NCBI RefSeq assembly: GCF_003987175.1
Contig: NZ_PIPM01000003.1
Location: forward strand, 62,001 to 126,000
DNA from: Aliidiomarina sanyensis
GTDB taxonomy: Bacteria; Pseudomonadota; Gammaproteobacteria; Enterobacterales; Alteromonadaceae
Direction: 5' to 3'
DNA length: 64,000 nt
In this document: piece by piece, positions 4,903 to 20,066 of the stretch
Position numbering within the stretch: position 1 is the stretch's first letter
Layout: each line of letters starts with the position of its first letter
Notes under the pieces: model-generated
Seen by the model: the letters and a program-made list of their open reading frames with translations, nothing else
What the model was told of the DNA's origin: nothing
Database searches by the model: none
Position numbers and translations under genes: made by a program

Positions 4903-6099
4903 ATGATACATTGGAAACATAAAGGAATTTGGCTTGCGGCTTGTGCCGTGCTTATATTTATTTGGGCCATGCGCCCGTCTCCCGAACGAGTGACTACAGC
5001 ACTCGTGGAGCAAAAGCCCTTTGCCGAATTTATTACCGAGGAGGGACTGACCCATCTTGAAGACACGTTCAATGTGGCAGCACCTATTCAAGGTTTTTTG
5101 CGCCGGGTTGAGCTCAATAGTGGAGATCCGGTCGAAGTCGGTGCTCCACTATTTTTCATGGAGCCCATGCCAGCTCCTGCGTTGGATGCGCGAAGCCGTG
5201 AACAAGCGCGCGAGTCAGTCAGTGCAGCGGAAGCTCGCCTTGAGGCAGCCCGCGCTGAATACGAAAATCGTCAATCAGAAACCCGTTTTGCCACCAATGA
5301 GCTTGCTCGGTTCCGACAGCTTTCGCAGGAAGGCGTCATTTCTGCAACTGAGTTAGAACGAGCAGAAAATAACCTGCAACGCTCCAGATCAGCAGAGCGA
5401 GCCATGCTGGCAGCCGTGGGTGCAGCTCAATCTGAGCTCGACAACGCACGGATTGTACTTGCCGTGACCGAGGGCACGCGGGCGGCAAGCGAAGTCCAAG
5501 CGCTGCAAATACCAAGCCCAATCGATGGGGTTGTTTTACGCCGTTTTCGTTGCTGTGAAGGGGTTGTGCAAGCTGGAGAGCGCGTTGTCGAGGTGGGGAA
5601 TCTCGAAGCATTAGAGGTGCGGATTGACCTTCTGTCTCAGGATGCAGTCCGCGTGAGACCGGGAATGCGTGTTGAAATCACCCGCTGGGGTGGCGACGAG
5701 ACGCTGATCGGAACCATTCGGCGGATTGATCCAGCTGGATTTACACGGGTTTCTGCTTTAGGTATTGAAGAACAGCGAGTGCGAGTTTTTGCATCCTTTG
5801 TATCTCCACCAGAAACCCGTCAGGCCCTCGGCGAAGGATTCCGCGTGGAAGCTCGGATCATTCTATGGGAAACAGAACAAGGTTTGGTCATTCCCAGTAG
5901 CGCGTTATTTCGTGATGGCGATCGTTGGTCTGTGTTTAAGATTCAGGATGGACGTGCGGTTCAACAGCCGGTTAATGTGATCCGCCGCAGTGGCATTGAG
6001 ACACTCATCGATGACAATTTGGAACCGGGCAGTTTGGTTGTTACTCACCCTCCCCGCGGACTACGTCCTGGGCAACGGGTGCAAGAGATCTCTCGCTAG
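4903..6099 (+). CDS. HlyD/RND-type membrane fusion (periplasmic adaptor) protein
   Basis: About 398 residues: an N-terminal membrane anchor (roughly 8-24), a barrel-sandwich half (NVAAPIQGFLRRVELNSGD), a coiled-coil hairpin rich in Glu, Arg and Ala (about 95-190), the second half-lipoyl segment (IPSPIDGVVLRRF) and beta-barrel regions. It should link the FtsX-type permease to the outer membrane or a periplasmic partner. I chose the ATG at 4903 because GGAG lies 7 nt upstream; a GTG directly after the permease stop (4888) would add five residues but has no ribosome site. No outer-membrane channel gene is adjacent. Confidence 0.88.
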   Translation: MIHWKHKGIWLAACAVLIFIWAMRPSPERVTTALVEQKPFAEFITEEGLTHLEDTFNVAAPIQGFLRRVELNSGDPVEVGAPLFFMEPMPAPALDARSREQARESVSAAEARLEAARAEYENRQSETRFATNELARFRQLSQEGVISATELERAENNLQRSRSAERAMLAAVGAAQSELDNARIVLAVTEGTRAASEVQALQIPSPIDGVVLRRFRCCEGVVQAGERVVEVGNLEALEVRIDLLSQDAVRVRPGMRVEITRWGGDETLIGTIRRIDPAGFTRVSALGIEEQRVRVFASFVSPPETRQALGEGFRVEARIILWETEQGLVIPSSALFRDGDRWSVFKIQDGRAVQQPVNVIRRSGIETLIDDNLEPGSLVVTHPPRGLRPGQRVQEISR

Positions 6100-6179
6100 T
6101 AGAATGCCTGAGTCTATTTGACACTTGCAAACTACAGCAGGGTTGTTAACGTGGGTAAGACACCTGTGAGGAGTTTGAC

Positions 6180-7055
6180 ATGATTGCGACCTTTACACTT
6201 GCTGCCCGCGACCCGCAAACCCAGAGTTTTGCGGTCGTCACTGCCTCGAATTTTTTAGCGGTGGGCGCATTAGTCCCGTGGATTGACTGTCATGGCGGGA
6301 TTGTTGTCTCTCAGTCATATGCACATCCCGATGCAGCGGGCGCAGCGCTCGCAAATTTGCGTCACCAGACCCCCCTTGATCGCGTATTGAGCTCGTTTCT
6401 GGAGGACGATCCAATCGCATCAAAGCGACAAGTTGGGCTCATGAATACGCAAGGAGAGATTTTACTCTACGATGGTCCTGACTGCACCGCATCGGTTGAG
6501 AGCCTGAAAGGTGAGAACTTCTTCGTGTGCGGCAACATGCTGGTGCCCGGAACGGTTGAGGCAGTGGCAAAAGCGTTTACTGAGGCACGTCGAAAAGGTA
6601 CCGACTTGGGCGATGCAATGCTTCGAGCCATGTTTGCAGGTCAACAGCATGGTGGCGACCATCGAGGTAAACTTGCTGCCGCGTTGCTCATTAAACGCCC
6701 TGGAGCAGGATATTTAGAGAGCTCTGATACCTTCGTCGATTTACGTGCCGATGCGTCGTCACATCCACTTGCCTTGCTACGCGATCTCTACAGCTTATTT
6801 AAACTGTATAACCCACATCATTTTTCCCATCAAATGATTCCGGAGGCTCAGCTTAGTCCGGCTGACAATGATCTGATTGCGCAAATTCTCACCACATTAC
6901 AAGGCGTATCAGAATTAACCCTAGATTCACCCGAATCTGTGCACGGGATGCTTGCCCGACACAACCTCGCACAGAACTATGAACCGGACAAACATCGGTT
7001 TAGCTCCTTGCTCTTGAGTGAAGGGCATGCGTTACTTCGCTTGCTTCGTGTATAG
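6180..7055 (+). CDS. DUF1028 family protein (Ntn-hydrolase-like)
   Basis: 291 residues. The N-terminal two thirds match the DUF1028 family: a start of type MIATFTLAARDPQTQSFAVV, a GGIVVSQSYA segment, and the AGQQHGGDHRGKLAAALLI motif. DUF1028 has a predicted N-terminal nucleophile hydrolase-like fold, but its reaction is not established to my knowledge. The last ~90 residues contain a short helical tail (DLYSLFKLYNPHH). No signal peptide, so probably cytosolic. GAGGAG precedes the ATG by 6 nt. It is separate from the upstream export operon (80 nt gap) and overlaps the convergent gene below by 24 nt. Confidence 0.85.
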   Translation: MIATFTLAARDPQTQSFAVVTASNFLAVGALVPWIDCHGGIVVSQSYAHPDAAGAALANLRHQTPLDRVLSSFLEDDPIASKRQVGLMNTQGEILLYDGPDCTASVESLKGENFFVCGNMLVPGTVEAVAKAFTEARRKGTDLGDAMLRAMFAGQQHGGDHRGKLAAALLIKRPGAGYLESSDTFVDLRADASSHPLALLRDLYSLFKLYNPHHFSHQMIPEAQLSPADNDLIAQILTTLQGVSELTLDSPESVHGMLARHNLAQNYEPDKHRFSSLLLSEGHALLRLLRV

Positions 7056-7961
7056 CCAATTCCGCGCACGCGAACGCCATTGCTTGAAGAAACCTCGGCG
7101 CTTTCTTTGGGGTTCAAAGTCCTGCCAATTCTCGACAAAAAACTTACTCTGTGAGCGAACAAACCGCGTGTGCATTGCCGGGAGTGGCTGAGCGGAGATA
7201 TCCTCCGGAATCCGATATTTTTTGACCTCATTGAAGCGCGCTTGTAATTCAGGCACATGCCCTCGCGCAATGATATACAGCTCACAAAAGTCACCTTGTG
7301 CTGGATTCAGAACAATCTCACGTTCAGCGGTGCGGATCCGGACCAACCCCTCACTATCAACCTGAATATGTGGCGAGCTCATCGGTACCCGAAAACGGCT
7401 TGGAACATAGTTGTATGGTAGTGGGTAAAATGAATCCGCACGTAATGGGACTGGTATAGTATTCATTGGATAGCGACCACTTGCTTCTACTTCGTAGGCG
7501 GTCTCATAGGTTCGTAAGAAACAGTCAAAACGCAAGTTATAGAGGCGCAGTGATGATGCGATATAGAAATGAATATCAAGGAAGGTTTCACCCTCTTCTG
7601 CGCTCCACTCGGTTTTACTACGAAACACAATGTTGTCACGACTCAGGACGAAAAATTTGTAGATGATAATTCCGAGAAAAATCGAGGGTGATAACAGTGA
7701 CAGGGTCGCCAAAAACGCACGAATATTTTGGTACATAAACTGATCAGGCAAACTCCACCGGGGCTCCTTACCGAACAGTTCTGTATAAATATGATAAAAG
7801 TATGTGACTGTATTCCTCGCATCCCCGACCACCCAGCCAATCATAAACGCGAGGAGTAACGCTAGCACCGCATTTACCACGACGAAGTCAAAGGTCAAAC
7901 GCAGAATAGAATGCGATGCTATATATTGCCGGATTTTAAAGTTCTTCCTTGGATGAATCAT
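7032..7961 (-). CDS. Membrane protein, two helices plus cytosolic beta domain (possibly Kir-like)
   Basis: I do not recognise this 309-residue protein with certainty. It has a short basic N-terminus, a strong helix at about 23-46, a ~40-residue periplasmic loop, a second helix at about 84-108, and then ~200 soluble residues rich in beta strand. The post-helix region (IIYKFFVLSRDNIVFRSKTEW followed by LDIHFYIASSLRLYNLR) faintly resembles the cytoplasmic domain of inward-rectifier K+ channels, but no TxGYG selectivity filter is present between the helices. The start at 7961 has GAAGG 5 nt upstream. It lies 23 nt after the DUF2784-M14 gene and is probably cotranscribed with it. The last 24 nt overlap the convergent DUF1028 gene. 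Confidence 0.6.
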   Translation of the reverse strand: MIHPRKNFKIRQYIASHSILRLTFDFVVVNAVLALLLAFMIGWVVGDARNTVTYFYHIYTELFGKEPRWSLPDQFMYQNIRAFLATLSLLSPSIFLGIIIYKFFVLSRDNIVFRSKTEWSAEEGETFLDIHFYIASSLRLYNLRFDCFLRTYETAYEVEASGRYPMNTIPVPLRADSFYPLPYNYVPSRFRVPMSSPHIQVDSEGLVRIRTAEREIVLNPAQGDFCELYIIARGHVPELQARFNEVKKYRIPEDISAQPLPAMHTRFVRSQSKFFVENWQDFEPQRKRRGFFKQWRSRARNWLYTKQAK

Positions 7962-7984
7962 GCGTGCCTTCGCTATATTGGGTG

Positions 7985-9367
7985 TTAACGCTGCAAGTAA
8001 TTGAGCCCACCTACAATCGCAGCTACTTGCGCATCAATGCACTCCTGAGGCGTCGCATTTGCACTGTCGGGATAGACTTCGGTCGTCGATACATAGGGCG
8101 CATCGGACAGCCCCATGCACAGTCCCGCTTGTTTTCCAGGGTAGTGGATCACGCCAAATTGCTCCACCGGTACACCGATCAGCTCATTGCGTTCATCCGC
8201 CTCCGCGATGTGCGTGACTTTCTTAACCGAGTTTAAAATGGCCTTCTGAAAATCGGGTGTTGGACGTTCCGTATCACCGACTAAATAAAACCCGTCCGGA
8301 ATATTCCAGTTGGTATTCACTGTGCCATCACGGGCCGCCAAAGCGGGACGGAACTCGGTGTTATCCGTATCTGTCGTCTCGTGAAGATCGATGTGCATTA
8401 GCAACTCAGGGGCATGTTTGGCAACATAAGCCATCGCCAGCTGTGCCTCTTGGGCCGGCGCATCCTCGGTGAACGAGCGATTAGGATCAACCGCATCTGG
8501 GTTCCAACGGTTAATCGTCTCATAGCCCCAAGGACTAATGCATGGCAGGACCAAAACATTAAAATGCGCTTGATATTGCGCCGCGACCGTCTCTAGGAAC
8601 GCCAGAGCTCCTAAAACACCGGATGTTTCATACCCATGAACACCGCCTGTGACGAGAATCGTTGGACGCGAGTCTAGCCAATTTTTGGAGCGCACAGCAA
8701 AGAGTTCATAGTCGGTTCCAACCTGCTCCGAGTAAGGTAAAACGCCATAGACTTCGACATCATAATGAGCCCGTAAGGCATCAATACGGCTCACCACATC
8801 CTGAGTATACGAACGACGTTTACGTTGCTTCCGTAACCACGCTGCCTTCTCGTTATCACCCCAAGGGATTCCCGGGCTACCGATTGGATAACCTTCACTA
8901 AACTTCATATAAAGCCTCGATTCATAACGTCGCCGTGCAGCCAACATACGCGGCGGCCAACGCCACCAGGTATAGACTACCGCAAGAAAAAACAAGGCAT
9001 AGGTTGCCATAAATATCCAAGCAGGCAAATCAAAGTAGATAAAACGCGATACCCAGTAGTCGATAAACGATGAATCGAAGCTTGGCTGACCCGCCGCAAG
9101 TCGCAAATCTTGTTCAACGTAGGTCAACGGGCAGTAACGCCCGGAAAATGACTGAATCACGACGACAACAATGATGGCAAAGTGTATCGTGCGAAACCAT
9201 GAGTTGCGGATCCAATGCCACCGCCGATACCCGCCAACAATTGTAAGTGGCAATGAGAGAACAACAAAAACGACGATTAAGGCGTGAATAATCATCACGA
9301 TATCGGCTGCAAGGCCCGGGAATGGAACCATTTGTGTCCACGTAGGGATCTCATTAATTTTCGACAT
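7985..9367 (-). CDS. Fusion of DUF2784 membrane domain and M14-family zinc carboxypeptidase
   Basis: 460 residues. Residues ~18-140 match DUF2784 (four membrane helices with the ADIVMIIHALIVVFVV, YCPLTYVEQDLR and FIDYW motifs), normally a stand-alone protein of about 120-140 residues. Residues ~154-460 are a complete M14-type metallopeptidase: zinc ligands H244 and E247 in GGVHGYETSG and H329 in HIDLHETTDTD, with candidate catalytic E430 in STTEVYPDS. Stand-alone relatives begin near the YPIGSPG block, which here follows M154. That internal ATG (8906-8908) has GAGG 6 nt upstream, so a free peptidase (7985-8908, 307 residues) could also be made. The upstream ATG at 9367 has only a weak ribosome site. 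Reaction expected: removal of C-terminal amino acids; the natural substrate is unknown. Confidence 0.85.
   Translation of the reverse strand: MSKINEIPTWTQMVPFPGLAADIVMIIHALIVVFVVLSLPLTIVGGYRRWHWIRNSWFRTIHFAIIVVVVIQSFSGRYCPLTYVEQDLRLAAGQPSFDSSFIDYWVSRFIYFDLPAWIFMATYALFFLAVVYTWWRWPPRMLAARRRYESRLYMKFSEGYPIGSPGIPWGDNEKAAWLRKQRKRRSYTQDVVSRIDALRAHYDVEVYGVLPYSEQVGTDYELFAVRSKNWLDSRPTILVTGGVHGYETSGVLGALAFLETVAAQYQAHFNVLVLPCISPWGYETINRWNPDAVDPNRSFTEDAPAQEAQLAMAYVAKHAPELLMHIDLHETTDTDNTEFRPALAARDGTVNTNWNIPDGFYLVGDTERPTPDFQKAILNSVKKVTHIAEADERNELIGVPVEQFGVIHYPGKQAGLCMGLSDAPYVSTTEVYPDSANATPQECIDAQVAAIVGGLNYLQR
8909..8918 (-). promoter_or_regulatory. Internal ribosome-binding site before M154 of the DUF2784-M14 gene
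   Basis: On the minus strand GAGG (plus 8915-8918) is spaced 6 nt from an in-frame ATG (8906-8908) exactly where stand-alone M14 relatives start. It is stronger than the site before the annotated start. Whether it is used is inference. Confidence 0.45.
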
Positions 9368-9547
9368 TTATCTCGCTCGTCTTCACACTTCAGTCGGAAT
9401 TGGTCTATTCTGCTTGTAACAGGGGCGCAAAAGCAAAAAATCCAACGGTCATCCGAATTTTTTCAGGTGGACAACAAATGGAATATAACGATACAAGGTT
9501 GCCAAGGACACCATGCTGAAAGGTTTTCTTTAAAAGGATTTGAATCG

Positions 9548-11326
9548 GTGCTTGAGAACAAACGTTGGCACGCCCTTCTTTGGGTGGTTGTTTCAACGAT
9601 CTTCATTTCGGCGTACGCGACCGCACAAAATAGAATCGGTGGCGACGGCGTTGCTGTGTCTGATCGGTTTGAAGTGTATCCTCTCGACATGCGGGTTAGC
9701 ATGCTCCGCGATCCAAGTCGTCGTCTCGATTTTGCACAGGTCCGTGAACGTCCCGATGACTTTGTTTTGGTCAATGACCGACGCCAACTCCAACTAAATT
9801 ACACCGATGAGCATGTCTGGTTGCGCACGGACATACTCAATATGCAACCGCGCCAAGCCACCTGGTATCTGCAGTTTGAGTATCCGCTATTAGCCCATCT
9901 GACCGTTTACGTTGAGAAGAACGGCTCCTTAGACGTGATGAATTCGGGGGTTCAAGTCCCACAAAATCAACGTGCAATGCGGGGGCGATTGCACACATTT
10001 CCAATTACCATTGATGCCGGTGAAAGTGCGCGGATTTATGTGCAAGCGCGCTCTGACGCGAGCATGACATTATTTAGCGCCCTTCTCTCCGAACGTGCAT
10101 ATGCTGAGCAGAATAATCGACAAAACTTTTGGCTGAGCATTCACTTTGGAATGATCATTGCCTTGAGCCTCTACAACCTCCTGTTATTCTCAGGAGTTCG
10201 AGAGAAGGTCTTTTTATTATACTCTGTGTTTGTCATGAGCTTCGGGGTTGGAACCCTCGCCGCAAACGGTCTGGGGACCCTCATCTTGCTTGACTCCGCC
10301 ACAATCGCAACAGAGCGGGTAGTCTCCATTGCCTTTATGTTATCCGCACTTTTCGGAACGTTATTTGTTCGAACCTTCCTCGATACGCGTCGGTATCAGC
10401 GAGGATGGCACTTTTTCCTAACCATATTGGCAGTCGGTGTCTTCCTTGCAATTGGAGGAAGTCTGTTCCTTGAGCTTCGACATGCGCTCATTTTGATGGA
10501 CTTCGTCGGTTTCTCAACCTGTCTTATTTTGTTTGCCTGTGGGATTCAATTTTATCGCCGGGGCGTTTCTGGTGCGGGACTCTTTGTCCTCGCTTGGTCT
10601 ATTTTGCTTACCGGTGCGTCCTTGTTTGCACTGCGCAATTTAGGAATTCTACCGTCAAACTTTATCACCTTGTACGGCATCCAGATCGGTTCTGCCATTG
10701 AGATGCTGCTACTGTCCTTTGCACTCGTGGCGCGGGTCAATAAATTGAAACGCCAGAAAGAAGAAGCACAAAGTCGTGTGGTTGCCACATTAAAAGCACA
10801 AGAGGCCGTGCTTGAATCCAAGGTTGCGCAACGCACGCGCGATCTTGAAATCATGGCCAACAGTGACACCCTTACGGGATTACTGAATCGAAACGGGCTG
10901 ACCCGACACCTCAAAAGCGCCATTAAACGATGCCAACGGGAAGAGCGCGCGCTTACCCTATTCATGCTCGATCTTGATCAATTTAAACCAATCAACGATC
11001 AATACGGGCATGATGCAGGTGACTACGTTCTCCAACGAATCGCACAGCGAATCCAAGAAAGTGCCCGAGGCAATGACGCCGTTGCACGTTTTGGCGGGGA
11101 TGAGTTTATCGTTGTGACCGAGAACATTCAGACAAAAGAAGATATTGAGGCCGTCAAGCGCCGCCTTAAACGTGTCATCACCCATCCCATCCAAATTCCC
11201 GGTGGCGATGAGGTCAGCGTGGGCGTGAGTATTGGTCATTGCATTGCTGAGGCACCGAGCAGCATCAACGAGCTGTTACGCAAAGCCGATGCTGCAATGT
11301 ATACCGCAAAACACAAGCAAGGTTAA
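9548..11326 (+). CDS. Diguanylate cyclase with 7TMR-DISM sensor
   Basis: About 592 residues. An N-terminal signal peptide (hydrophobic core ALLWVVVSTIFISA, cleavage after ATAQ) leads to a periplasmic 7TMR-DISMED2 beta-sandwich (about 40-185), seven membrane helices (about 195-395), a short coiled coil (KLKRQKEEAQSRVVATLKAQ) and a C-terminal GGDEF domain. The active-site motif GGDEF is intact at 516-520, and an inhibitory I-site RGND (RxxD) lies five residues before it at 507-510. The enzyme should therefore make cyclic-di-GMP from GTP with product inhibition, responding to a periplasmic signal. I set the start at GTG 9548 because AAAAGGA lies 10 nt upstream and the signal peptide begins there; the open frame extends back into the divergent gene. 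Its TAA shares the TTAA with the stop of the convergent ynjF-like gene. Confidence 0.9.
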   Translation: MLENKRWHALLWVVVSTIFISAYATAQNRIGGDGVAVSDRFEVYPLDMRVSMLRDPSRRLDFAQVRERPDDFVLVNDRRQLQLNYTDEHVWLRTDILNMQPRQATWYLQFEYPLLAHLTVYVEKNGSLDVMNSGVQVPQNQRAMRGRLHTFPITIDAGESARIYVQARSDASMTLFSALLSERAYAEQNNRQNFWLSIHFGMIIALSLYNLLLFSGVREKVFLLYSVFVMSFGVGTLAANGLGTLILLDSATIATERVVSIAFMLSALFGTLFVRTFLDTRRYQRGWHFFLTILAVGVFLAIGGSLFLELRHALILMDFVGFSTCLILFACGIQFYRRGVSGAGLFVLAWSILLTGASLFALRNLGILPSNFITLYGIQIGSAIEMLLLSFALVARVNKLKRQKEEAQSRVVATLKAQEAVLESKVAQRTRDLEIMANSDTLTGLLNRNGLTRHLKSAIKRCQREERALTLFMLDLDQFKPINDQYGHDAGDYVLQRIAQRIQESARGNDAVARFGGDEFIVVTENIQTKEDIEAVKRRLKRVITHPIQIPGGDEVSVGVSIGHCIAEAPSSINELLRKADAAMYTAKHKQG

Positions 11327-11928
11327 CGCAGACTGTGGTAGCCGCCGATCACCCGCGTGAACGTGGTAATAAAGCACAGCGTTGCAAATGCGAGGGCTAA
11401 CACCGGAAAAAACTGCGGAAAAATACAAAACAACACAAAAATAAAAATAGTTTCAAAGCCCTCGGTAAGACCACTCGCGTAGTAGAGCGACTTATTCGGG
11501 TACTTCGGGTTTTTTAGATTACGTTTAGCCGCCAACGCTGCAAAGGCAAGAAAACTCGCGCCCGTACCCATGAAGCTCAGCATTAACACAGCGCCCGCCA
11601 CTCCGTTTAGGCTCGGATCAAAGAGAATAAATGCGAATGCAAACGCATTATAAAACAAGAAGTCGAGTACGATATCTAGAAACGCGCCTTGGTCGGTAGG
11701 TTCGGTCAATCGTGCAAGCTCGCCATCGACTCCGTCGCTCAATCGATTCAGCGCCAAGAAAAATAAAGCCCAGTAAAATGCTCCAAAAGTCACCGCCACA
11801 CAGGCCAAAAGACCAAGAAAGAAGCCTCCAATCGTGACCTGATCAGCACGAACACCTTTGTTGTGTAAAAACTCCGCAATCGGGTGCGTGACTTTAAATA
11901 CCAGGGGTTGAAGTCGATTATCAAACAT
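11323..11928 (-). CDS. ynjF: CDP-alcohol phosphatidyltransferase family protein (YnjF-like)
   Basis: This 201-residue inner-membrane protein with about five to six helices has the CDP-alcohol phosphotransferase motif D-G-x2-A-R-x7-G-x3-D-x3-D (DGELARLTEPTDQGAFLDIVLD). The spacer is seven residues rather than the usual eight, as I recall for the YnjF-type subfamily. Such enzymes transfer a phosphatidyl or phospho-alcohol group from a CDP-alcohol; the acceptor here is unknown. E. coli YnjF (about 206 residues) is the last gene of the ynjABCDEF locus, as here. Its ATG overlaps the ynjD stop by 8 nt. It is the last gene of the operon and converges on the diguanylate cyclase with shared stop bases. 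Confidence 0.85.
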   Translation of the reverse strand: MFDNRLQPLVFKVTHPIAEFLHNKGVRADQVTIGGFFLGLLACVAVTFGAFYWALFFLALNRLSDGVDGELARLTEPTDQGAFLDIVLDFLFYNAFAFAFILFDPSLNGVAGAVLMLSFMGTGASFLAFAALAAKRNLKNPKYPNKSLYYASGLTEGFETIFIFVLFCIFPQFFPVLALAFATLCFITTFTRVIGGYHSLR

Positions 11929-12553
11929 AAATTACCTGCGCATGTTCAGGAATATCTTGAATATCATGAGTTACCAACAACGTCGGAAGCCCTTGACGCG
12001 CTAATTGCGCAAAGGTCCAAGCACGGACTTCTTCACGAGTCGCCGTATCCAGAGAAGAAAACGGCTCATCCAGCAACATGACCGCAGGTTGATTGAGTAT
12101 TGCACGTGCCAAAGCCACTCGAGCCGCTTGCCCACCACTCATTACATCCGGCGCCTGTTCAGAAAGGTGAGCAATGCCAAAAGCATCAAGACACGCCTGA
12201 AGCTGCCGAGCTCGCTCAGCAGGCGTCTCTGTTCCCCTTTGGGCACATTGTAAGTTTTCGCGAACGGTTAAGTGAGGAAACAACCATGGTTGTTGCATTC
12301 GCAGTCCAATCCGCCGCGCTTGAGTTGGCAAAGCATCTACACGCACCCCACCGACTCGAATCTCTCCTGAACAGTCGAATTCAGGCAGTGAATCACCCAC
12401 AAGCCAGTGGAGCAAAGAGCTTTTACCACTCCCACTCGGTCCCATCAACACGACAATCTCACCTTGTTGTATGGTGAGCTCTGGTAATTCGATTAGCGGA
12501 CTCGATTGGCTACGGAGCTGAATGCGAATACCTCTAAGCTCAAGCTGACTCAC
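11921..12553 (-). CDS. ynjD: ABC transporter ATP-binding protein YnjD
   Basis: 210 residues (E. coli YnjD about 217). Walker A GPSGSGKS at 38-45, signature MSGGQ at 138-142, Walker B with D162 and E163 in VMLLDEPFSSLD, and a switch His in LLVTHDIQDIPEHA. It provides ATP hydrolysis for the YnjC permease at the cytosolic face. The start is GTG at 12553 with AGAGGG about 7 nt upstream. It lies 36 nt after ynjC, and its stop overlaps the ynjF ATG by 8 nt. The fold resembles ThiQ and other small importers of the polyamine/iron/thiamine class, but the substrate is not known. Confidence 0.9.
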   Translation of the reverse strand: MSQLELRGIRIQLRSQSSPLIELPELTIQQGEIVVLMGPSGSGKSSLLHWLVGDSLPEFDCSGEIRVGGVRVDALPTQARRIGLRMQQPWLFPHLTVRENLQCAQRGTETPAERARQLQACLDAFGIAHLSEQAPDVMSGGQAARVALARAILNQPAVMLLDEPFSSLDTATREEVRAWTFAQLARQGLPTLLVTHDIQDIPEHAQVIYV

Positions 12554-12589
12554 CGTTCGCCCTCTCTTATGTTGCTATCTATTTGCATC

Positions 12590-14248
12590 TTAGGCCTCGG
12601 CTCTGCCCGTTGCAGGATCTTCAACCCGAAATCGTCGCGCAAGCCACGCTCCGCCGATAAAAACCACCAATGGAAGCACAACTTGGGCAAATGCGTAGAG
12701 CGCTGCTAAGGAACGATCAAACCCACTTCCATACGCTGTCGCTTCGACCGTGATCGTGATCACCCGTCCCGCACCGAGAATAACTGTCGGTAAATACAGC
12801 AAAACACTCACTGAAAAAGCAACAGTCCAAGCAAGTATAAGCGGCGCAAGTAGCATCCGAAGCTTTATCTTTACCCAAGCCTGCATATCACTATAGCCAA
12901 GCACCTTGGCCTGCAACAACCAGATCCGAGAAAACCGTCGATACGTGGCAGCAAGGGTAAGCCAGACATAACTAATCGCAAAAATCAGCTGTGCCCAGAA
13001 GACCCACAAAAATGGTGCCGTCAGCGAATGCACACCAACAACTTGCTGCCAAATAAAAACAAGCGCAAGTTGTGGAATGATTAGGGGTAAAAGCATGAGA
13101 ATATCGGGCAGTTGACGTTGCGTCTTTGCTTCGAGTTCAAGTGCAACCACCACGAAAATGAGCGCCCCTGATGCAACGCCAAGGGCGAGAAAGCCCGTTT
13201 GCATAAGTGCGTTGACAACCTCCTCCCACTCCCATTGCCAATGACTCCATGTCCACGCCTGCGGAATCATGGTGTGGACAGGCCAAGATTCAATCACAGA
13301 CCACAGGATTAAAGTGAAAAAGGCAGCCCCGGTCAGCAGGATACTCAGATACACCCCTGCGGTACCCATGATCCGACCGAATTCTTGATAAAGGTGCACT
13401 ACTCGGCGCGACACCGGAACACCTTGAGACAGCTGTCTGCTGGCCCAGAGGCAGGCGCATCGTTCGTGCAACCAGACAAATGCAAGGGTGACCAGACCCA
13501 TGATAAACAACAGGGCGGTCCCCCACAGTGCTCTTTGTTGGCTAAGGTCAGTAAACTCCTGTGACCACCCAAGCACTCGTACCGCGAGTGGCCCAGGCGT
13601 GTTTGGCCCCACAACCGACGCCACATCGACCACCGAAACACCATAGATAGCGACCACGCACAAGGGGAGCCGGAGCTTTTTCAAAAGGTAGGGAAAGACG
13701 AGGCGCCAAAAATAGTCTATATCACGATAGCCAAAGGTCCGGGCAACGAGGCGCCACTGCTTAAGCGGTGCACTGTGAAGCGCAACGGCTGTCATCAATA
13801 AAACGAATGGGAGTTCCTTAAGCCACAACACCACCACGAGGAATGAGAGGGATTTATCCACAAAAAGAGACTGGAAGAATTCCCAACTGCCCGGCAACAT
13901 TCGGGATGCAAGTCCACCCGGCAATAAAAGCAAACCCATGCCCACCGCAAATGCAACATGGGGCATCGCTAACAAGGGTGCAATCCATGTGGGTAATTGC
14001 GAACGACGACTTAGAAACCAAAACGCCGTGTAACCTGCGAGCAAAGGTGGCAGGACGCCAAGTACCAGACTTATGCCCAATGACTGGCGAACCGAAGGTT
14101 CACCTATGAATTCCCAAAAATCAGCTGCAAATATGCTTGCGGTAACGGGAATAAGACCGATAACCGCCAGTCCAAGGGGAAGTAAAAATAAGCCGGTCAG
14201 CATGAGGATGCCCCCGCTCATGAAAAGGCGGCCAGCGCCTTTACTCAT
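12590..14248 (-). CDS. ynjC: ABC transporter permease YnjC (double permease domain)
   Basis: 552 residues with about twelve membrane helices in two homologous halves, each a binding-protein-dependent permease domain. EAA-type loops contacting the ATPase are visible in both halves (TFGYRDIDYFWRLVFP near 185-200 and VLGYSDMQAWVKIKLR near 460-475). Fused double permeases are typical of YnjC, ThiP and FbpB-type importers; E. coli YnjC is about 511 residues. I chose the ATG at 14248, which overlaps the ynjB stop by 8 nt (ATGAGTAA); an upstream in-frame ATG at 14281 would lie inside ynjB. Confidence 0.9.
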   Translation of the reverse strand: MSKGAGRLFMSGGILMLTGLFLLPLGLAVIGLIPVTASIFAADFWEFIGEPSVRQSLGISLVLGVLPPLLAGYTAFWFLSRRSQLPTWIAPLLAMPHVAFAVGMGLLLLPGGLASRMLPGSWEFFQSLFVDKSLSFLVVVLWLKELPFVLLMTAVALHSAPLKQWRLVARTFGYRDIDYFWRLVFPYLLKKLRLPLCVVAIYGVSVVDVASVVGPNTPGPLAVRVLGWSQEFTDLSQQRALWGTALLFIMGLVTLAFVWLHERCACLWASRQLSQGVPVSRRVVHLYQEFGRIMGTAGVYLSILLTGAAFFTLILWSVIESWPVHTMIPQAWTWSHWQWEWEEVVNALMQTGFLALGVASGALIFVVVALELEAKTQRQLPDILMLLPLIIPQLALVFIWQQVVGVHSLTAPFLWVFWAQLIFAISYVWLTLAATYRRFSRIWLLQAKVLGYSDMQAWVKIKLRMLLAPLILAWTVAFSVSVLLYLPTVILGAGRVITITVEATAYGSGFDRSLAALYAFAQVVLPLVVFIGGAWLARRFRVEDPATGRAEA

Positions 14249-15398
14249 AACGAGCTCGCCATGCAGACTCAAGCGCATCATGCCATGTTACGTGGGGTTC
14301 AGGTGCAGGGGGAAACGGCATGCCGACCACGTCCTTCGATTCGGAAAATTTGATCACTGGCGGATCCCCCCAGATCTGCGGGTCAGCTTTTTGTCGTTGT
14401 GCGTCCTCTGACAGAAGAAAGTTGAGCACCACCAAGGCCCCTGCTTGATTTACGCTCGCTTTGGGGATAGCCAAGAAATGATGATTGGTTATGGCCGTCG
14501 CTCCGAATGAAGTCTGGCGAACGTGATTCGAAACCTGCCCGCGCGCTTGCAACCCTGTTAAAGCTGCGGGGTTAAAATTCGGAGCCATACTGAGTCGCCC
14601 ATCAAGCATCAATCGTTGTTGCTCTGCGGCACTATTTGGGAACGCTTGCCCCTGTCGCCAAGCGTACGGATGGAGCGTATCGAGATAGGTAAACAATAAT
14701 TCGAACAATTCTGACCGCGCTTCGTCGGTAATCGGCGCCTGCAGCCTCGGATCGTCCCCACTCAGCGCTAACAGCAGTTGCTTTAAAAACGTCGTCCCAT
14801 GAAATTCAGGCGGCTTTGGGTAGGTGATGCGGCCCGGATTACGTTGGGCGTACTCAAGAAGCGACCTTGGAGTCACCGCACCATCCTCCTGCAATTCCTC
14901 ATTTTTTATCCAAAGATGAAACTGGGCCATACCCCAGGGCAATTCATAGTCATCGGTAGGAACACCAAAGTCTTCAGTGAACGGCTGTTCGGGATCAAGA
15001 AGCGCGGCATTCGGCACTCGAGCCGAGAGTTCACCGAGGAGTGCACCGACATCTTTGAGTGCATGAAAGTTCTTTCCGTTTACCCAAATCAGATCCACAG
15101 CGCTGCGTGCTTGATTGTTGACCATTTCTTGACGAACCAAAGCGACACTTTCGCTGACGTCACCTAGACGTACATGCTGGAGTCGCACGCCATACTGCTG
15201 CTGAATTTCCTGAGCCGCCCAGCGCAAGTAGCGATTAGCTTCGGTCGAGCCACCCCAACCGTGAAAATAAACTGTTTGGCCACGGGCTTCCTGAAGCGTT
15301 ACCTGCCAATCATCGGTGATTAATTCCTCGCCCTGCGAAAGCGCCACGCAAACAAGCCAGAGCGTCACGATGAGTGGCACGCGACCCGCTTTAAACAT
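14241..15398 (-). CDS. ynjB: Periplasmic substrate-binding protein YnjB
   Basis: 385 residues (E. coli YnjB about 388). The start MFKAGRVPLIVTLWLVCVAL gives a signal peptide. The mature protein has the type-2 solute-binding fold of extracellular binding proteins, with characteristic YFHGWGGSTEANRYLRWAA near the N-terminus and a PWGMAQFHLWIKNEE segment. It should deliver a small ligand to YnjC/YnjD. GGAGG lies 8 nt before the ATG at 15398, which overlaps the stop of the oxidoreductase gene by 8 nt (ATGTTTAA). The longer open frame up to 15506 would place 36 non-signal residues before the signal peptide and is rejected. Confidence 0.9.
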   Translation of the reverse strand: MFKAGRVPLIVTLWLVCVALSQGEELITDDWQVTLQEARGQTVYFHGWGGSTEANRYLRWAAQEIQQQYGVRLQHVRLGDVSESVALVRQEMVNNQARSAVDLIWVNGKNFHALKDVGALLGELSARVPNAALLDPEQPFTEDFGVPTDDYELPWGMAQFHLWIKNEELQEDGAVTPRSLLEYAQRNPGRITYPKPPEFHGTTFLKQLLLALSGDDPRLQAPITDEARSELFELLFTYLDTLHPYAWRQGQAFPNSAAEQQRLMLDGRLSMAPNFNPAALTGLQARGQVSNHVRQTSFGATAITNHHFLAIPKASVNQAGALVVLNFLLSEDAQRQKADPQIWGDPPVIKFSESKDVVGMPFPPAPEPHVTWHDALESAWRARYE

Positions 15399-17541
15399 CC
15401 GTTTTCCCTCCGCGGCGCCAGCGATGAAAACGTTCGACGAGCTGCAACAGCTTCTCTGGTTTTCGTGCTTTACGCCATTCACCCGCAACATATTTATTTG
15501 CTTCATTCATGGTCGGATAAATATGAATGGTACCCAGAATCTGATTCAGACCAATTTTATGTTTCATCGCCAATACAAATTCAGCAATCAAATCCGAGGC
15601 CCGGGGACCGACAATGGTCGCCCCTAAGATCTTATCTTTGCCAGGCACAGTCAGGACTTTTACAAAACCATAATTAGCATGATCGGCAATCGCTCGATCC
15701 AAATCTTCTAAATCATAACGTGTGACTTCATAGTCCACTGACTGCTTCTGAGCTGCCGTCTCCGTCAGACCGACCGTAGCAATTTCCGGATCGGTAAAGG
15801 TCGCCCACGGTATTACTCGATAATCCACGACAAACCGCTTGAATGGACTGAATAGCGAATTAACTGAGGCGTACCACGCCTGATGCGCCGCCACATGGGT
15901 AAATTGATAAGGACCCGCCACATCCCCTGCAGCATAGATCGTTGGAATCTCTGTTTGCATCCAGCCATTCACCATCAGAGGCCGCTCCACATCGATTCCG
16001 AGCGCTTCCAAACCAAATCCTCGAAGATTTGCTTTACGTCCGACGGCGACCAGAATCTGATCAAATGAAATGCGTTCTTCGCGTCCATCCAAAGTAACTG
16101 AATAGCTCTGCTCGTCCGCATGAAACTCACGCGCCGCGGCACCCAGCGCTAAGGTCACTCCTTCAGCTTCAAGTCGACTCGCGACAAGTTCTGCCACCTC
16201 TTGGTCTTCACGCGGAAGAATCCGCTCTTGCGCTTCCAATAAGGTCACCTGACTACCAAGGCGCGCAAACGCCTGTGCCAATTCACAACCGATCGGGCCT
16301 GCCCCCATCACCACGAGGCGTTTTGGTAATGTCTTGAGCGACCACAGATTTTCACTGGTTAGGTAAGGAACGTCTTGCAGGCCTGGAATATCCGGTACAA
16401 AAGGTGATGCACCGGTTGCCACAATAATAGAACGTGTCGTGAGCGTTTGGGTGCCTTCCGAGGTTTCAATCTCGACTTTCCATGGTGAAATAATTCGTGC
16501 GTATCCTTGCACCACGTCGACGCCCAGCCCAGTGTAACGCTCGACCGAGTCATGTGGCTCGATCGTCTGAATCACTTCGTGGACATGCGCCATGGTCGTT
16601 GCAAAATCGATTTGCAGATTCGGTTGTCCCGGAATTCCCAGCCCGCCCAGCCGAGCTTGCTGCGCATGTTTCGCTACCTGAATGAGCGCTTTGGAAGGAA
16701 CACAGCCCGTATTTAAACAATCCCCACCCATTTTGTGCGCTTCGACCAGTGTAACCTTTGCCTTCACCGTCGCCGCGATATACGAAGAGACTAGCCCTGC
16801 GGCACCGGCACCAATCACCACCAAATTACGATCAAATTGCTTGGGCTTGCGATACCCTTGAAGTGCCTTACGGCGTTTTATCCAAGCAACCATACCCTTC
16901 GCAATCAATGGAAAGAGAGCCAAAAGAGAGAATGAGAGCACTAACCGCAGCGAGAAAATATCACCCATGCGCTCAATCGTGGCCAGCTGTGTTCCTGCAT
17001 TCACATAAACCGCTGTCCCCGCCAGCATCCCCACTTGACTTACCCAGTAGTAAGTCCAGATTTTAATGCGGGTTAACCCCATCACGAGGTTAATTAAGAA
17101 AAATGGAAAGACCGGAAGCAGCCGGAGTGTCAGGAGGTAAAACGCGCCATCTTCTGAAAAGCGTTTATCAAATAACTCCAAACGTTTCGAGAACTTCGAT
17201 TGCACCCAATCACGGAATAAGAAACGAGCAGCGAGAAACGCAAGCGTTGCACCAATCGTGGACGCAAACGATGCAATCAGTAACCCCCAACCGAAGCCAA
17301 AGATAGCCCCCACCGCCAAAGTCATGACCGCAGCACCAGGAATGGAGAGCGCCGTCACTCCCACGTAAATAAGAAACGCAGCAGCGGCTAACAACAAAAA
17401 GTTAGCATCCCGCCACGCGGCCAAGCGTGACTGCTGATTTTGCAAGGTTTCAAGATTGAGGTACTGGGGCACATCGAAGGCAAAAACCAGCGCAATCATA
17501 AGCCCGAGGACCACCACCAACCCTAATTTTTTATAATTCAT
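15391..17541 (-). CDS. TVP38/TMEM64 membrane domain fused to mercuric-reductase-like FAD oxidoreductase
   Basis: 716 residues. Residues 1-225 are a TVP38/TMEM64 (DedA-superfamily) membrane domain with five to six helices, including the conserved GATLAFLAARFLFRDWV and TLRLLPVFPFFLINLV segments. Residues ~235-716 are a pyridine-nucleotide disulfide oxidoreductase: FAD-binding GAGAAG at 244-249, redox disulfide C275/C280 in GGDCLNTGCVPSK, NAD(P) site GAGPIGCELAQAF, second FAD motif YAAGDV, and the C-terminal HIYPTMNEAN active-site block. E. coli carries free TVP38 proteins (YdjX, YdjZ) next to ynjABCDEF, so the fusion fits the locus. The electron acceptor is unknown. It starts 12 nt after the TonB receptor stop with AGGG before the ATG. 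Confidence 0.93.
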   Translation of the reverse strand: MNYKKLGLVVVLGLMIALVFAFDVPQYLNLETLQNQQSRLAAWRDANFLLLAAAAFLIYVGVTALSIPGAAVMTLAVGAIFGFGWGLLIASFASTIGATLAFLAARFLFRDWVQSKFSKRLELFDKRFSEDGAFYLLTLRLLPVFPFFLINLVMGLTRIKIWTYYWVSQVGMLAGTAVYVNAGTQLATIERMGDIFSLRLVLSFSLLALFPLIAKGMVAWIKRRKALQGYRKPKQFDRNLVVIGAGAAGLVSSYIAATVKAKVTLVEAHKMGGDCLNTGCVPSKALIQVAKHAQQARLGGLGIPGQPNLQIDFATTMAHVHEVIQTIEPHDSVERYTGLGVDVVQGYARIISPWKVEIETSEGTQTLTTRSIIVATGASPFVPDIPGLQDVPYLTSENLWSLKTLPKRLVVMGAGPIGCELAQAFARLGSQVTLLEAQERILPREDQEVAELVASRLEAEGVTLALGAAAREFHADEQSYSVTLDGREERISFDQILVAVGRKANLRGFGLEALGIDVERPLMVNGWMQTEIPTIYAAGDVAGPYQFTHVAAHQAWYASVNSLFSPFKRFVVDYRVIPWATFTDPEIATVGLTETAAQKQSVDYEVTRYDLEDLDRAIADHANYGFVKVLTVPGKDKILGATIVGPRASDLIAEFVLAMKHKIGLNQILGTIHIYPTMNEANKYVAGEWRKARKPEKLLQLVERFHRWRRGGKTDV

Positions 17542-17553
17542 TGTATCGCCCTA

Positions 17554-19893
17554 CTAGAATCGGTACGTCGCGCGGATTCGCCAATGACGCGGAAGATTTG
17601 GCATAACGAGGTCCGCACCAAAGTAGCCCCCCTCAAAAACCGCCGACCAGTTATCCTCGTTGGTAACGTTCAGAATGTCGAGTCGCAGCTGAAGCTGTGG
17701 ATTCAGGTCATAACTTGCCATCGCATTCACTTCAAATTGATCGCGTATCCACACCGTTTGCAAGAAATCGAGCGGATAGGCTTCGCTATACCACGCATCC
17801 ACACCGAAACGGAGCTGGGAATTCCATTGATATCGAGCCGAGGTAGCTGCCGTCCAACGCGGGAGACCTTGGACGCGATTACGTGATGGTGGGAATGCGG
17901 TGAAATTTGGCGAGCCGAGCCCTGTGCCCTGAATAATATCGGGACGTGAATCATCAAATACATCGCGGACTTGTCGCGTACCTTGCACCGACGATGAATT
18001 ATCCCAGCGCGTATCTTGATATGCTAACAGCCCATTCCATTGCCACTGTGAGCCTACAAAAAAGACCTGCATTTCTGTCCCTTGGCTACGAATCCCCGAA
18101 TTCGAACCATCTAAGTTCCGCAGGCTCCGTGTTTGTTGATACGCCGCGACGTCCGCATACCAACGGGTATCCAATGAGCTCCACTTGAGGCCCACTTCAT
18201 ACAGCTCATTTTCCGTGGCGAAATTCTGGCGGTTGATTCGATTATCAGCACCGAGCACGGTGCCGCCCGCCATACTATTGGAGGTTGATTCCATATAGCT
18301 TGCGCTGCCATAGGCGTTTAGCTGTGCAGTCACACGATACACAACACCAAACTCCGCAGCACCTAAAAACCGCTCAATAGAATCCCGAGCCGCCTCGAAT
18401 CCCTCTGGCGGGATCGGATCCCGTGCGGTGACCCAATAGTGATCCCCGCGAACCCCGGTGCTGATGGTCAGTGCATCAGTCACTTGCCAGTCATGCTGTG
18501 CAAACAAGCCCCATTGCCAATTCGAAGAATCCGTCGTGTCGGACAGATTAAAATCGCCCTGCCCATCGCCGGACACATCATACTGCCCACCGGGCGACAC
18601 AAACAGGCCAGGCCTAAGCTCCACGAACCGCGCCTGTTGCTCGGGCGTCAGTGGAATCCGACGCTGTTCAATGGTGCCGGTCAGATCAATCGGATTATCT
18701 GCTTCTGTCGTGAATTGACTGTAACCACGAACACCGGTGTAGCGAAGGCTGGATCCAAATACAATCCGCGCACGTGTCGCATAGTCGTAGTAAAGCTCAA
18801 GACGATTTTCCGCAGTGTGCGCTCGGTCAATGATCTCAACAAAACTATTTTGAGCAATATTTTCACGCTGCATGTTTTCATAATAGCTGCGATTGACTAA
18901 TTGCCAGTCAGGGCCCAGATCACGCTCATACACGCCATGAAAAATATGGGTTCGCGCATCGGATATATTATCGGGGTCCGTCAACACACGATTGCGCGGA
19001 ATTCGCACTTCACCCGTTGGGCTCACCACAGCAAGTGGTCCGGGCACTTGGGAGCCATTCGGTTGGCGCCCTTGCCCCGTGATGTAGAGGCCCTCATCAA
19101 TCAGCGCTTGGGTTGGGCGATTCAATCCCGCATTGTCGGTAAATTCGACGTCGTAATATTCCCAGCTGATATTCCATTCAGATACATCATCCGGCCGCCA
19201 ACGTGCTGTGACGAATAAATTCTGACTATCCCAACCGGTGAAATCATAAAAGCTATTTTCATCACGGATCTCAACACTCGCGCGCAGCGCTAGCACGTCC
19301 TCTTCGATCACCCGCGAACCGTCAAACTGCACCCCATAGTGGTCCCAACGCCCGACATGACCACTGAGGGTGCTAAACTCTCGCGTGAAATGCGCCTGCT
19401 TTGGCTGGATATTGAGAAAGCCCCCCACCCGTTGTGTCGTTCCAAGCATCACAGGGGGTGTCCCCCGAGCCACATCAATTTGCTCAGCACTATTAAACGA
19501 TAAAGGGATTCCAAACCCGTTGTTGCCACCTTGACGTCTTAAGCCGTGGGTAAAGACCTCACCAAGCTGTCCACGCAATGTTGGCAAAGATGCTGAACCG
19601 AACCCAACTGCTCCATAACTTCCGGGGACAATGCGATTTAACTCATTCACGTCAAGAATCAGTTGATCACCCAAGAGCTCTGCGCTTAAGGGGGTCACCG
19701 CCCGCGGAATATCAATCAAGTCCTGGTCAAAACCAAAGGTCCCGCGTAAGCGAGCGCCTTGAACCGTCCGTTTCTCTTCACGGGACTCCCCGACGACCTG
19801 AATGACTTCAATGGGTTCTTCATTGTCAGCCAATACAGCCGAGGCGAGTAGCGATAATGGGAATAGCAGGGAACCAATAATCGGGCGTGACAT
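17554..19893 (-). CDS. TonB-dependent outer-membrane receptor
   Basis: 779 residues. Signal peptide (MSRPIIGSLLFPLSLLASAVLA), a TonB-box-like stretch (EPIEVIQVVG) just after cleavage, a plug domain (about 45-165, with IDIPRAVTPLSAELL and PTLRGQ), and a 22-strand barrel ending in aromatic ATYRF, the usual outer-membrane targeting end. It should move a ligand across the outer membrane using TonB energy. I chose the ATG at 19893, with GGAG 6 nt upstream; a TTG four codons earlier is less likely. It is the first gene of the operon with the TVP38-FAD protein and YnjBCDF. No Fur box or cobalamin/TPP riboswitch is evident in the leader. Confidence 0.92.
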   Translation of the reverse strand: MSRPIIGSLLFPLSLLASAVLADNEEPIEVIQVVGESREEKRTVQGARLRGTFGFDQDLIDIPRAVTPLSAELLGDQLILDVNELNRIVPGSYGAVGFGSASLPTLRGQLGEVFTHGLRRQGGNNGFGIPLSFNSAEQIDVARGTPPVMLGTTQRVGGFLNIQPKQAHFTREFSTLSGHVGRWDHYGVQFDGSRVIEEDVLALRASVEIRDENSFYDFTGWDSQNLFVTARWRPDDVSEWNISWEYYDVEFTDNAGLNRPTQALIDEGLYITGQGRQPNGSQVPGPLAVVSPTGEVRIPRNRVLTDPDNISDARTHIFHGVYERDLGPDWQLVNRSYYENMQRENIAQNSFVEIIDRAHTAENRLELYYDYATRARIVFGSSLRYTGVRGYSQFTTEADNPIDLTGTIEQRRIPLTPEQQARFVELRPGLFVSPGGQYDVSGDGQGDFNLSDTTDSSNWQWGLFAQHDWQVTDALTISTGVRGDHYWVTARDPIPPEGFEAARDSIERFLGAAEFGVVYRVTAQLNAYGSASYMESTSNSMAGGTVLGADNRINRQNFATENELYEVGLKWSSLDTRWYADVAAYQQTRSLRNLDGSNSGIRSQGTEMQVFFVGSQWQWNGLLAYQDTRWDNSSSVQGTRQVRDVFDDSRPDIIQGTGLGSPNFTAFPPSRNRVQGLPRWTAATSARYQWNSQLRFGVDAWYSEAYPLDFLQTVWIRDQFEVNAMASYDLNPQLQLRLDILNVTNEDNWSAVFEGGYFGADLVMPNLPRHWRIRATYRF

Positions 19894-20000: not shown

Positions 20001-20036
20001 TAAAAACCAGAAACCGCATTCTTATTGGAATGCGGT
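20001..20036 (-). terminator. Terminator after the M28 pseudogene
   Basis: On the minus strand a perfect 9-bp stem (ACCGCATTC / GAATGCGGT, 6-nt loop) is followed by TTTCTGGTTTTTAA. The U tract is imperfect. It separates the broken peptidase gene from the TonB operon. Confidence 0.6.
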
Positions 20037-20066
20037 CTCCACGTTGGATTTAGATCGTGAACTCGC

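Follow-up and report, generated by a model that had tools for sequence, protein, structure and literature searches.

Conserved coupling of a TonB-dependent receptor to the uncharacterised YnjBCD importer, usually together with a TVP38-flavin protein, in Aliidiomarina sanyensis and other bacteria

What a TonB-dependent outer-membrane receptor does at the head of an operon for YnjBCD, an ATP-binding cassette (ABC) importer, is the question raised by a locus of Aliidiomarina sanyensis. The locus lies in a stretch of 64,000 nucleotides (contig NZ_PIPM01000003.1, positions 62,001 to 126,000), hereafter the window, from a 2.59-Mb genome. It is an operon composed of six open reading frames (ORFs), all on the minus strand and running from 19893 to 11323, in the order receptor, TVP38-FAD protein (a TVP38 membrane domain fused to a flavin adenine dinucleotide (FAD) domain), YnjB, YnjC, YnjD and YnjF, with gaps computed from the coordinates of 12, -8, -8, 36 and -8 nucleotides, exactly as in the preliminary description of this DNA. 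Comparison across genomes showed that the coupling of a TonB receptor to the YnjBCD(F) importer is conserved and usually includes a TVP38-flavin protein. As far as the literature searched goes, this coupling is an undescribed form of a known, uncharacterised system: no published account of a TonB receptor linked to YnjBCD was found in that literature, many journals being outside its coverage, a passage of PMC9207381 still terms YnjBCD uncharacterised, in agreement with the preliminary description, and the passages on YnjBCD give no tested substrate.

The first gene (17554..19893, minus) codes for a TonB-dependent receptor of 779 amino acids, with a PF00593 beta-barrel domain (73.2 bits, cut-off 27) and a plug domain, PF07715, that falls just short of its cut-off (23.7 versus 23.9). 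The second (15391..17541, minus) encodes a protein of 716 amino acids in which a TVP38/VTT membrane domain (residues 71-184; VTT 90.3 bits, cut-off 33.9) is joined to a FAD domain like that of MerA and lipoamide dehydrogenase (residues about 239-683; Pyr_redox_2 220.9 bits, cut-off 26.1; Pyr_redox_dim 110.1, cut-off 25.3). YnjB (14241..15398, minus), a periplasmic solute-binding protein that begins at an ATG inside a longer ORF, with a signal-peptide-like start at 15398, is 41% identical to Escherichia coli YnjB and scores 406.9 bits with NF008633, twice the NCBIfam cut-off (203). YnjC (12590..14248, minus), a double-length ABC permease that also starts at an ATG inside a longer ORF, gives just 22.9 bits with BPD_transp_1 (cut-off 26.4) but can be aligned to its E. 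coli counterpart over two segments, and YnjD (11921..12553, minus; GTG start) is an ABC ATPase (ABC_tran 107.7 bits, cut-off 25) 41% identical to its E. coli counterpart, so that the window has the double-length permease and short ATPase, in the order B-C-D, of YnjBCD systems. The last gene codes for YnjF (11323..11928, minus), a cytidine diphosphate (CDP)-alcohol phosphatidyltransferase 50% identical to E. coli YnjF (CDP-OH_P_transf 39.6 bits, cut-off 22), whose family motif D..DG..AR...G...D...D is complete in 93 of 94 members, including the window's at residues 65-89.

A receptor pattern scan of genome contigs, with an alignment of four receptors as the query (the window's, that of G348 and two of G085, all YnjB-linked), yielded 60 loci from 184 candidate stretches; because it was seeded with YnjB-linked receptors, these loci are not an independent sample. 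YnjB is present in 54 of them, and within 8 kb of it in those 54 TVP38-FAD, YnjC, YnjD and YnjF were found 53 times each (not always in the same 53) and DUF547 in 45. A fatty-acid-hydroxylase-like gene accompanies them in the same orientation in 46 loci and in the opposite one in 5, whereas a DoxX-like gene is mostly in the opposite orientation (41 loci, versus 2 in the same one). The window's gene order recurs in 49 of the 60 loci, more often than chance would give, many of them having DUF547 as an insertion; TVP38-FAD precedes the receptor in L061, L094, L100 and L106. The window operon is a short form, without the DUF547, hydroxylase-like and DoxX-like genes of the fuller operons; DUF547 had no match in the window's genome, and control genomes likewise gave none. 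Operon genes are interrupted in the assemblies of L091, L098 and L108. The named rows closest to the window's YnjB and receptor in trees are metagenome-assembled genomes of Idiomarina (L050, L092).

In a sample of 246 genomes of the family (YnjB at E 1e-30, receptor at E 1e-100, at most four candidates scored per genome), YnjB was found in 67 and the receptor in 64, and all 64 receptor genomes carry YnjB, the two lying within 10 kb of each other in 61 (median 4.5 kb), while three genomes have YnjB alone. These genomes are kin and dominate the counts, so that the Fisher value for the co-occurrence should not be read as a true probability. In G468, G611 and G578 the two genes are distant from each other yet both retained; the receptor is beside TVP38-FAD in the first two, not in the third. 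The receptor-plus-importer cluster first noticed in the window is thus conserved beyond the strain, though the nine same-genus genomes listed contain neither gene, which makes the operon patchy in its own genus.

The importers that go with the receptor do not form one group. In a YnjB tree of 83 rows the receptor-linked sequences fall in three places: group A (the window, Gilvimarinus, Pseudidiomarina) beside receptor-less f184 genomes, group B (Alteromonas, Pseudoalteromonas, Shewanella, Colwellia) near f171 genomes, and group C (Nevskia, L090, and G085, L046 and L047) on a long branch of less sure placement, possibly a third receptor-importer pairing. In G085 the receptor, YnjB, permease-like and ATPase genes are present twice; DUF547 lies upstream of each copy, and one copy has an MNIO-like gene nearby. 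Group names were assigned from an initial tree, the receptor-less rows nested in A or B (L113, L115, L155) being counted there, and L160, identical to L061, belongs to group A though labelled B in the receptor tree. In a concatenated YnjBCD tree A and B stand apart, each with a value of 100 in the Shimodaira-Hasegawa-like approximate likelihood ratio test (SH-aLRT), and a single clade was rejected (64 rows, leaving out L041, L150, L154, L138, L146, L143, L132 and group C; log-likelihood 122 lower, approximately unbiased (AU) test p 0.00021). Among 11 A and 18 B loci, mean identity between the groups is close to that within A for the receptor (53.8% versus 56.8%) and TVP38-FAD (58.6% versus 60.4%), and lower for YnjB (34.7% versus 50.2%; highest A-B value 40.1%, lowest A-A value 41.6%), YnjC (26.7% versus 37.0%) and YnjF (46.5% versus 55.8%); YnjD figures were unused, since some rows may be another ATPase. 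In two strains named Aliiglaciecola lipolytica, whose importers belong to A and B respectively, the receptors are 61% identical and the YnjB proteins 36%. These comparisons suggest that the importer was replaced under a retained receptor, the inner-membrane half, YnjBC(F), being exchangeable and TVP38-FAD usually, not always, going with the receptor. A possible alternative is common ancestry far back followed by many losses, which would need a receptor slowed on just that branch. One receptor kind above at least two separate YnjBCD lineages argues for a shared ligand, and its pairing with two, perhaps three, of them suggests a ligand scarce enough to merit TonB-dependent uptake.

The receptor appears siderophore-like by sequence and fold. 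Its sequence profile finds the siderophore receptors 5nec, 5fp1 and 3qlb as best solved relatives, and its structure model (mean predicted local distance difference test (pLDDT) value 79.3) matches the fold of PiuA best (5fp1, E 2e-36), the best profile and fold matches together being PiuA, PiuD, Fiu, FptA and FpvA. Identity to the 50 fold matches listed is 10-18%, and TIGR01783 (TonB siderophore receptor) is absent from its two NCBIfam matches at E 0.001. PqqU and OprC are also among the fold matches listed, so that the receptor class does not name the ligand. The YnjB model (mean pLDDT 93.3) has the fold of PotD, AfuA, FbpA and the 2-aminoethylphosphonate and thiamin binders (query TM-score about 0.57-0.70), at just 12-19% identity; the importer beside the receptor has a binding protein of the PotD/FbpA/thiamin type, not of the usual siderophore type. 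The residues W24, W81, W131, D78, D119, E128 and H283 (numbered as in the model) are invariant in YnjB, a set that might accommodate a cationic or aromatic ligand. A ferric-ion site was considered and rejected: that of FbpA has an adjacent Tyr pair, and none occurs among the conserved columns of YnjB.

Several observations weigh against a general coupling or against parts of it. Six of the 60 receptor loci (five of Microbulbifer, and L082, where the receptor adjoins TVP38-FAD) lack YnjB, and the receptor has no neighbouring TVP38-FAD in G578, Microbulbifer, L090 (a locus without TVP38-FAD) and G085. Among 369 genomes of the class, with two receptor candidates scored per genome, 14 have YnjB over the cut-off, and the receptor is missing from 11 of these, the other three carrying it beside YnjB. 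YnjB was found in 51 of 398 genomes of the phylum, and a deeper search (up to 22 candidates, E 1e-60) of 47 YnjB genomes, namely the 44 of those 51 that lie outside the family and the three YnjB-only family genomes, missed the receptor in 46; the single exception, G779, has sequences equal to those of a named Gilvimarinus locus. YnjBCD therefore usually works without this receptor and in general does not need it. Of the two findings named in the preliminary description as refuting, a receptor neighbour confined to the strain did not occur, and a ligand of YnjB homologs that needs no outer-membrane receptor is half borne out by these counts. The YnjB-only tree did not reject a single clade of receptor-linked importers (AU p 0.056; L159, L114, L123 and the group C rows L046, L047 and L090 left out), and in the A. 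lipolytica pair the two TVP38-FAD proteins are 58% identical, whereas that of the B strain shares 73% with its counterpart in an Alteromonas, so that TVP38-FAD does not follow the receptor there. Known ferric-siderophore systems use a different importer class. No riboswitch was found in an Rfam scan of six relatives from the 60 loci, which gave just one tRNA, and no 10-base word occurs in more than 12 of 58 upstream regions, leaving no common regulatory site.

Away from the receptor the importer keeps other company. In 35 of the 44 phylum YnjB loci outside the family (L126-L160), YnjF shares the strand of the importer in 15 and lies opposite it in 5, TVP38-FAD is present in 11, relatives of TIGR04282, TIGR04283 and APH-type proteins in 3 each, a TIGR03169-like oxidoreductase in 2 and bufferin genes in 1, which makes YnjF the commonest partner after YnjC and YnjD. 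A hydantoinase/oxoprolinase-like gene lies directly upstream of YnjF-YnjBCD in f223 genomes (L138 5343-7409, L146 9706-11718). Two of the Microbulbifer loci, L086 and L096, have no YnjBCD; there DUF547, an RND-like gene and another TonB-receptor-like gene adjoin the receptor.

The FAD part of the second protein scores under the cut-offs of lipoamide dehydrogenase (TIGR01350, 392 versus 409 bits) and MerA (TIGR02053, 378.3 versus 454.45). It has the CxxxxC motif common to both enzymes, which is kept in 59 of 59 aligned relatives. The position of the catalytic His of lipoamide dehydrogenase is taken by a Tyr before Pro-Thr in 47 listed rows of the 59, and the C-terminal Cys pair of MerA has no equivalent, there being no Cys in the final 60 residues of the window protein or in 63 of 65 cluster members. 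A stretch rich in Lys and Arg follows the membrane part and, by the positive-inside rule, would place the FAD domain on the cytoplasmic side. The same domain pair, COG0398 DedA with a pyridine nucleotide-disulfide oxidoreductase, is given as the commonest COG0398 fusion in part of PMC10127716, where that account of the fusions makes no mention of YnjBCD or a receptor.

An uptake route can be proposed from these elements, and as a whole it is favoured, if not strongly. A siderophore-class TonB receptor would capture a scarce ligand at the outer membrane, YnjB would bind it in the periplasm and YnjCD would carry it into the cytoplasm, where the TVP38-tethered FAD domain could reduce the ligand or its metal; YnjF may act on an imported or released alcohol, or serve the membrane. 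That receptor and importer serve one ligand is probable, and the odds that this ligand is reduced by the FAD domain are about even. A scarce redox-active chelate or thiol compound seems the likeliest cargo, a metal or metalloid chelate being a reasonable candidate and a thiol or disulfide compound a somewhat weaker one. The FAD domain, the DoxX-like neighbours, a CMD-like neighbour in G468 (weak, 20.5 bits, cut-off 23; E. coli YnjA belongs to the CMD family) and FNR activation of the E. coli operon point toward a redox-active or thiol ligand, and the receptor class and a few bufferin neighbours toward a metal. The chelate suggested in the preliminary description fits a siderophore-class receptor, and its interpretation is, overall, partly supported. 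A bolder version, rather improbable, would make receptor and TVP38-FAD a redox-uptake module that adopts any YnjBCD importer available. Its cargo, a redox-active metallophore or thiol chelate, would be imported reductively, the flavin reductase sitting in the membrane close to the exit of the importer. Such a module would give the whole YnjBCD family, that of E. coli included, a first ligand class, and counting against it TVP38-FAD neither always accompanies the receptor nor follows it in A. lipolytica. The receptor also offers an independent handle on YnjBCD cargo in culturable marine bacteria, through receptor binding, receptor deletion and analysis of bound ligand.

Other explanations share parts of this evidence. 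Receptor and YnjBCD could be neighbours by shared inheritance and serve different ligands, as the predominance of related genomes and the Microbulbifer receptors without YnjBCD would allow; the two, perhaps three, separate pairings and the co-occurrence retained in three genomes where the genes lie apart make this unlikely. Just as unlikely is a role in envelope or lipid maintenance, in which TVP38 would be a lipid scramblase, YnjF would combine CDP-diacylglycerol with an imported alcohol into a phospholipid, lipids would be altered by an OlsE-like hydroxylase and the receptor would scavenge a head-group alcohol. The intact YnjF motif, the frequent hydroxylase-like gene, weakly matching the ornithine-lipid hydroxylase OlsE, and the scramblase activity described for DedA relatives in a passage of PMC10127716 agree with it, as do four f171 loci (L034, L129, L133, L149; family models were run on L034 alone) where no YnjF was found and an APH-type kinase and TIGR04282/TIGR04283-like genes adjoin YnjBCD. 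It leaves the FAD domain unexplained, however, the window operon has no hydroxylase, and the OlsE score is 85.5 against a cut-off of 475.

Handling of copper or another metal, with import of a copper chelate, reductive release and a link to bufferin-type copper-binding peptides, is less probable still. In L042 and L157, MNIO-DUF2282-DUF2063 genes adjoin YnjBCD and share its strand, and an IncC plasmid (L110) carries such genes along with TVP38-FAD and YnjB; DoxX-like genes appear in both settings, and bufferins are said in a passage of PMC12452194 to aid growth under copper stress. Of the 14 class loci, however, just 2 have MNIO near YnjB (L047 with it on the opposite strand), as does 1 of the 35 phylum loci; among the 54 YnjB-bearing loci of the receptor scan there is none, and the FAD domain is without the Cys pair of MerA. 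A pathway for arsenosugars or arsenolipids was rejected as highly improbable: TIGR04282 and TIGR04283 "arsenosugar biosynthesis" proteins pass their cut-offs in L034 and have relatives in L129, L133 and L149, but of 20 genomes just one, G085, has ArsS (TIGR04167) above its cut-off, there on a different contig, and neither the window's genome nor any of the four carrying those genes does.

The plasmid L110 (NZ_MH760469.1, typed as conjugative) holds together at 5158-14864 bufferin genes, DoxX, TVP38-FAD, a TIGR03169-like oxidoreductase that scores under that model's cut-off, and YnjB; the next permease-like ORF is short and adjoins IS26, with resistance genes beyond. In the window, a putative terminator hairpin with a T tail (20008..20041, minus; a consensus match only) lies between an upstream M28 peptidase gene and the operon, a 460-amino-acid ORF at 7985-9367 (minus) matches DUF2784 and an AstE/AspA-like domain, and the only Rfam element is a tmRNA.

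The closest known system is ydjXYZ-ynjABCD of E. coli, together with ynjE and ynjF, to which the operon had been matched from the start. The homology of YnjB, YnjC, YnjD and YnjF bears this out, and in E. coli the order B-C-D is the same, with TVP38 proteins and YnjF close by. The likeness is looser in the rest: the E. coli operon has no receptor and no annotated FAD fusion, its TVP38 proteins being separate (ydjX, ydjZ), and it contains in addition ydjY and ynjA, with ynjF on the other strand. FNR activation is listed for that operon in part of PMC3688515, and a table in PMC9397018 places E. coli YnjB with polyamine-binding proteins.

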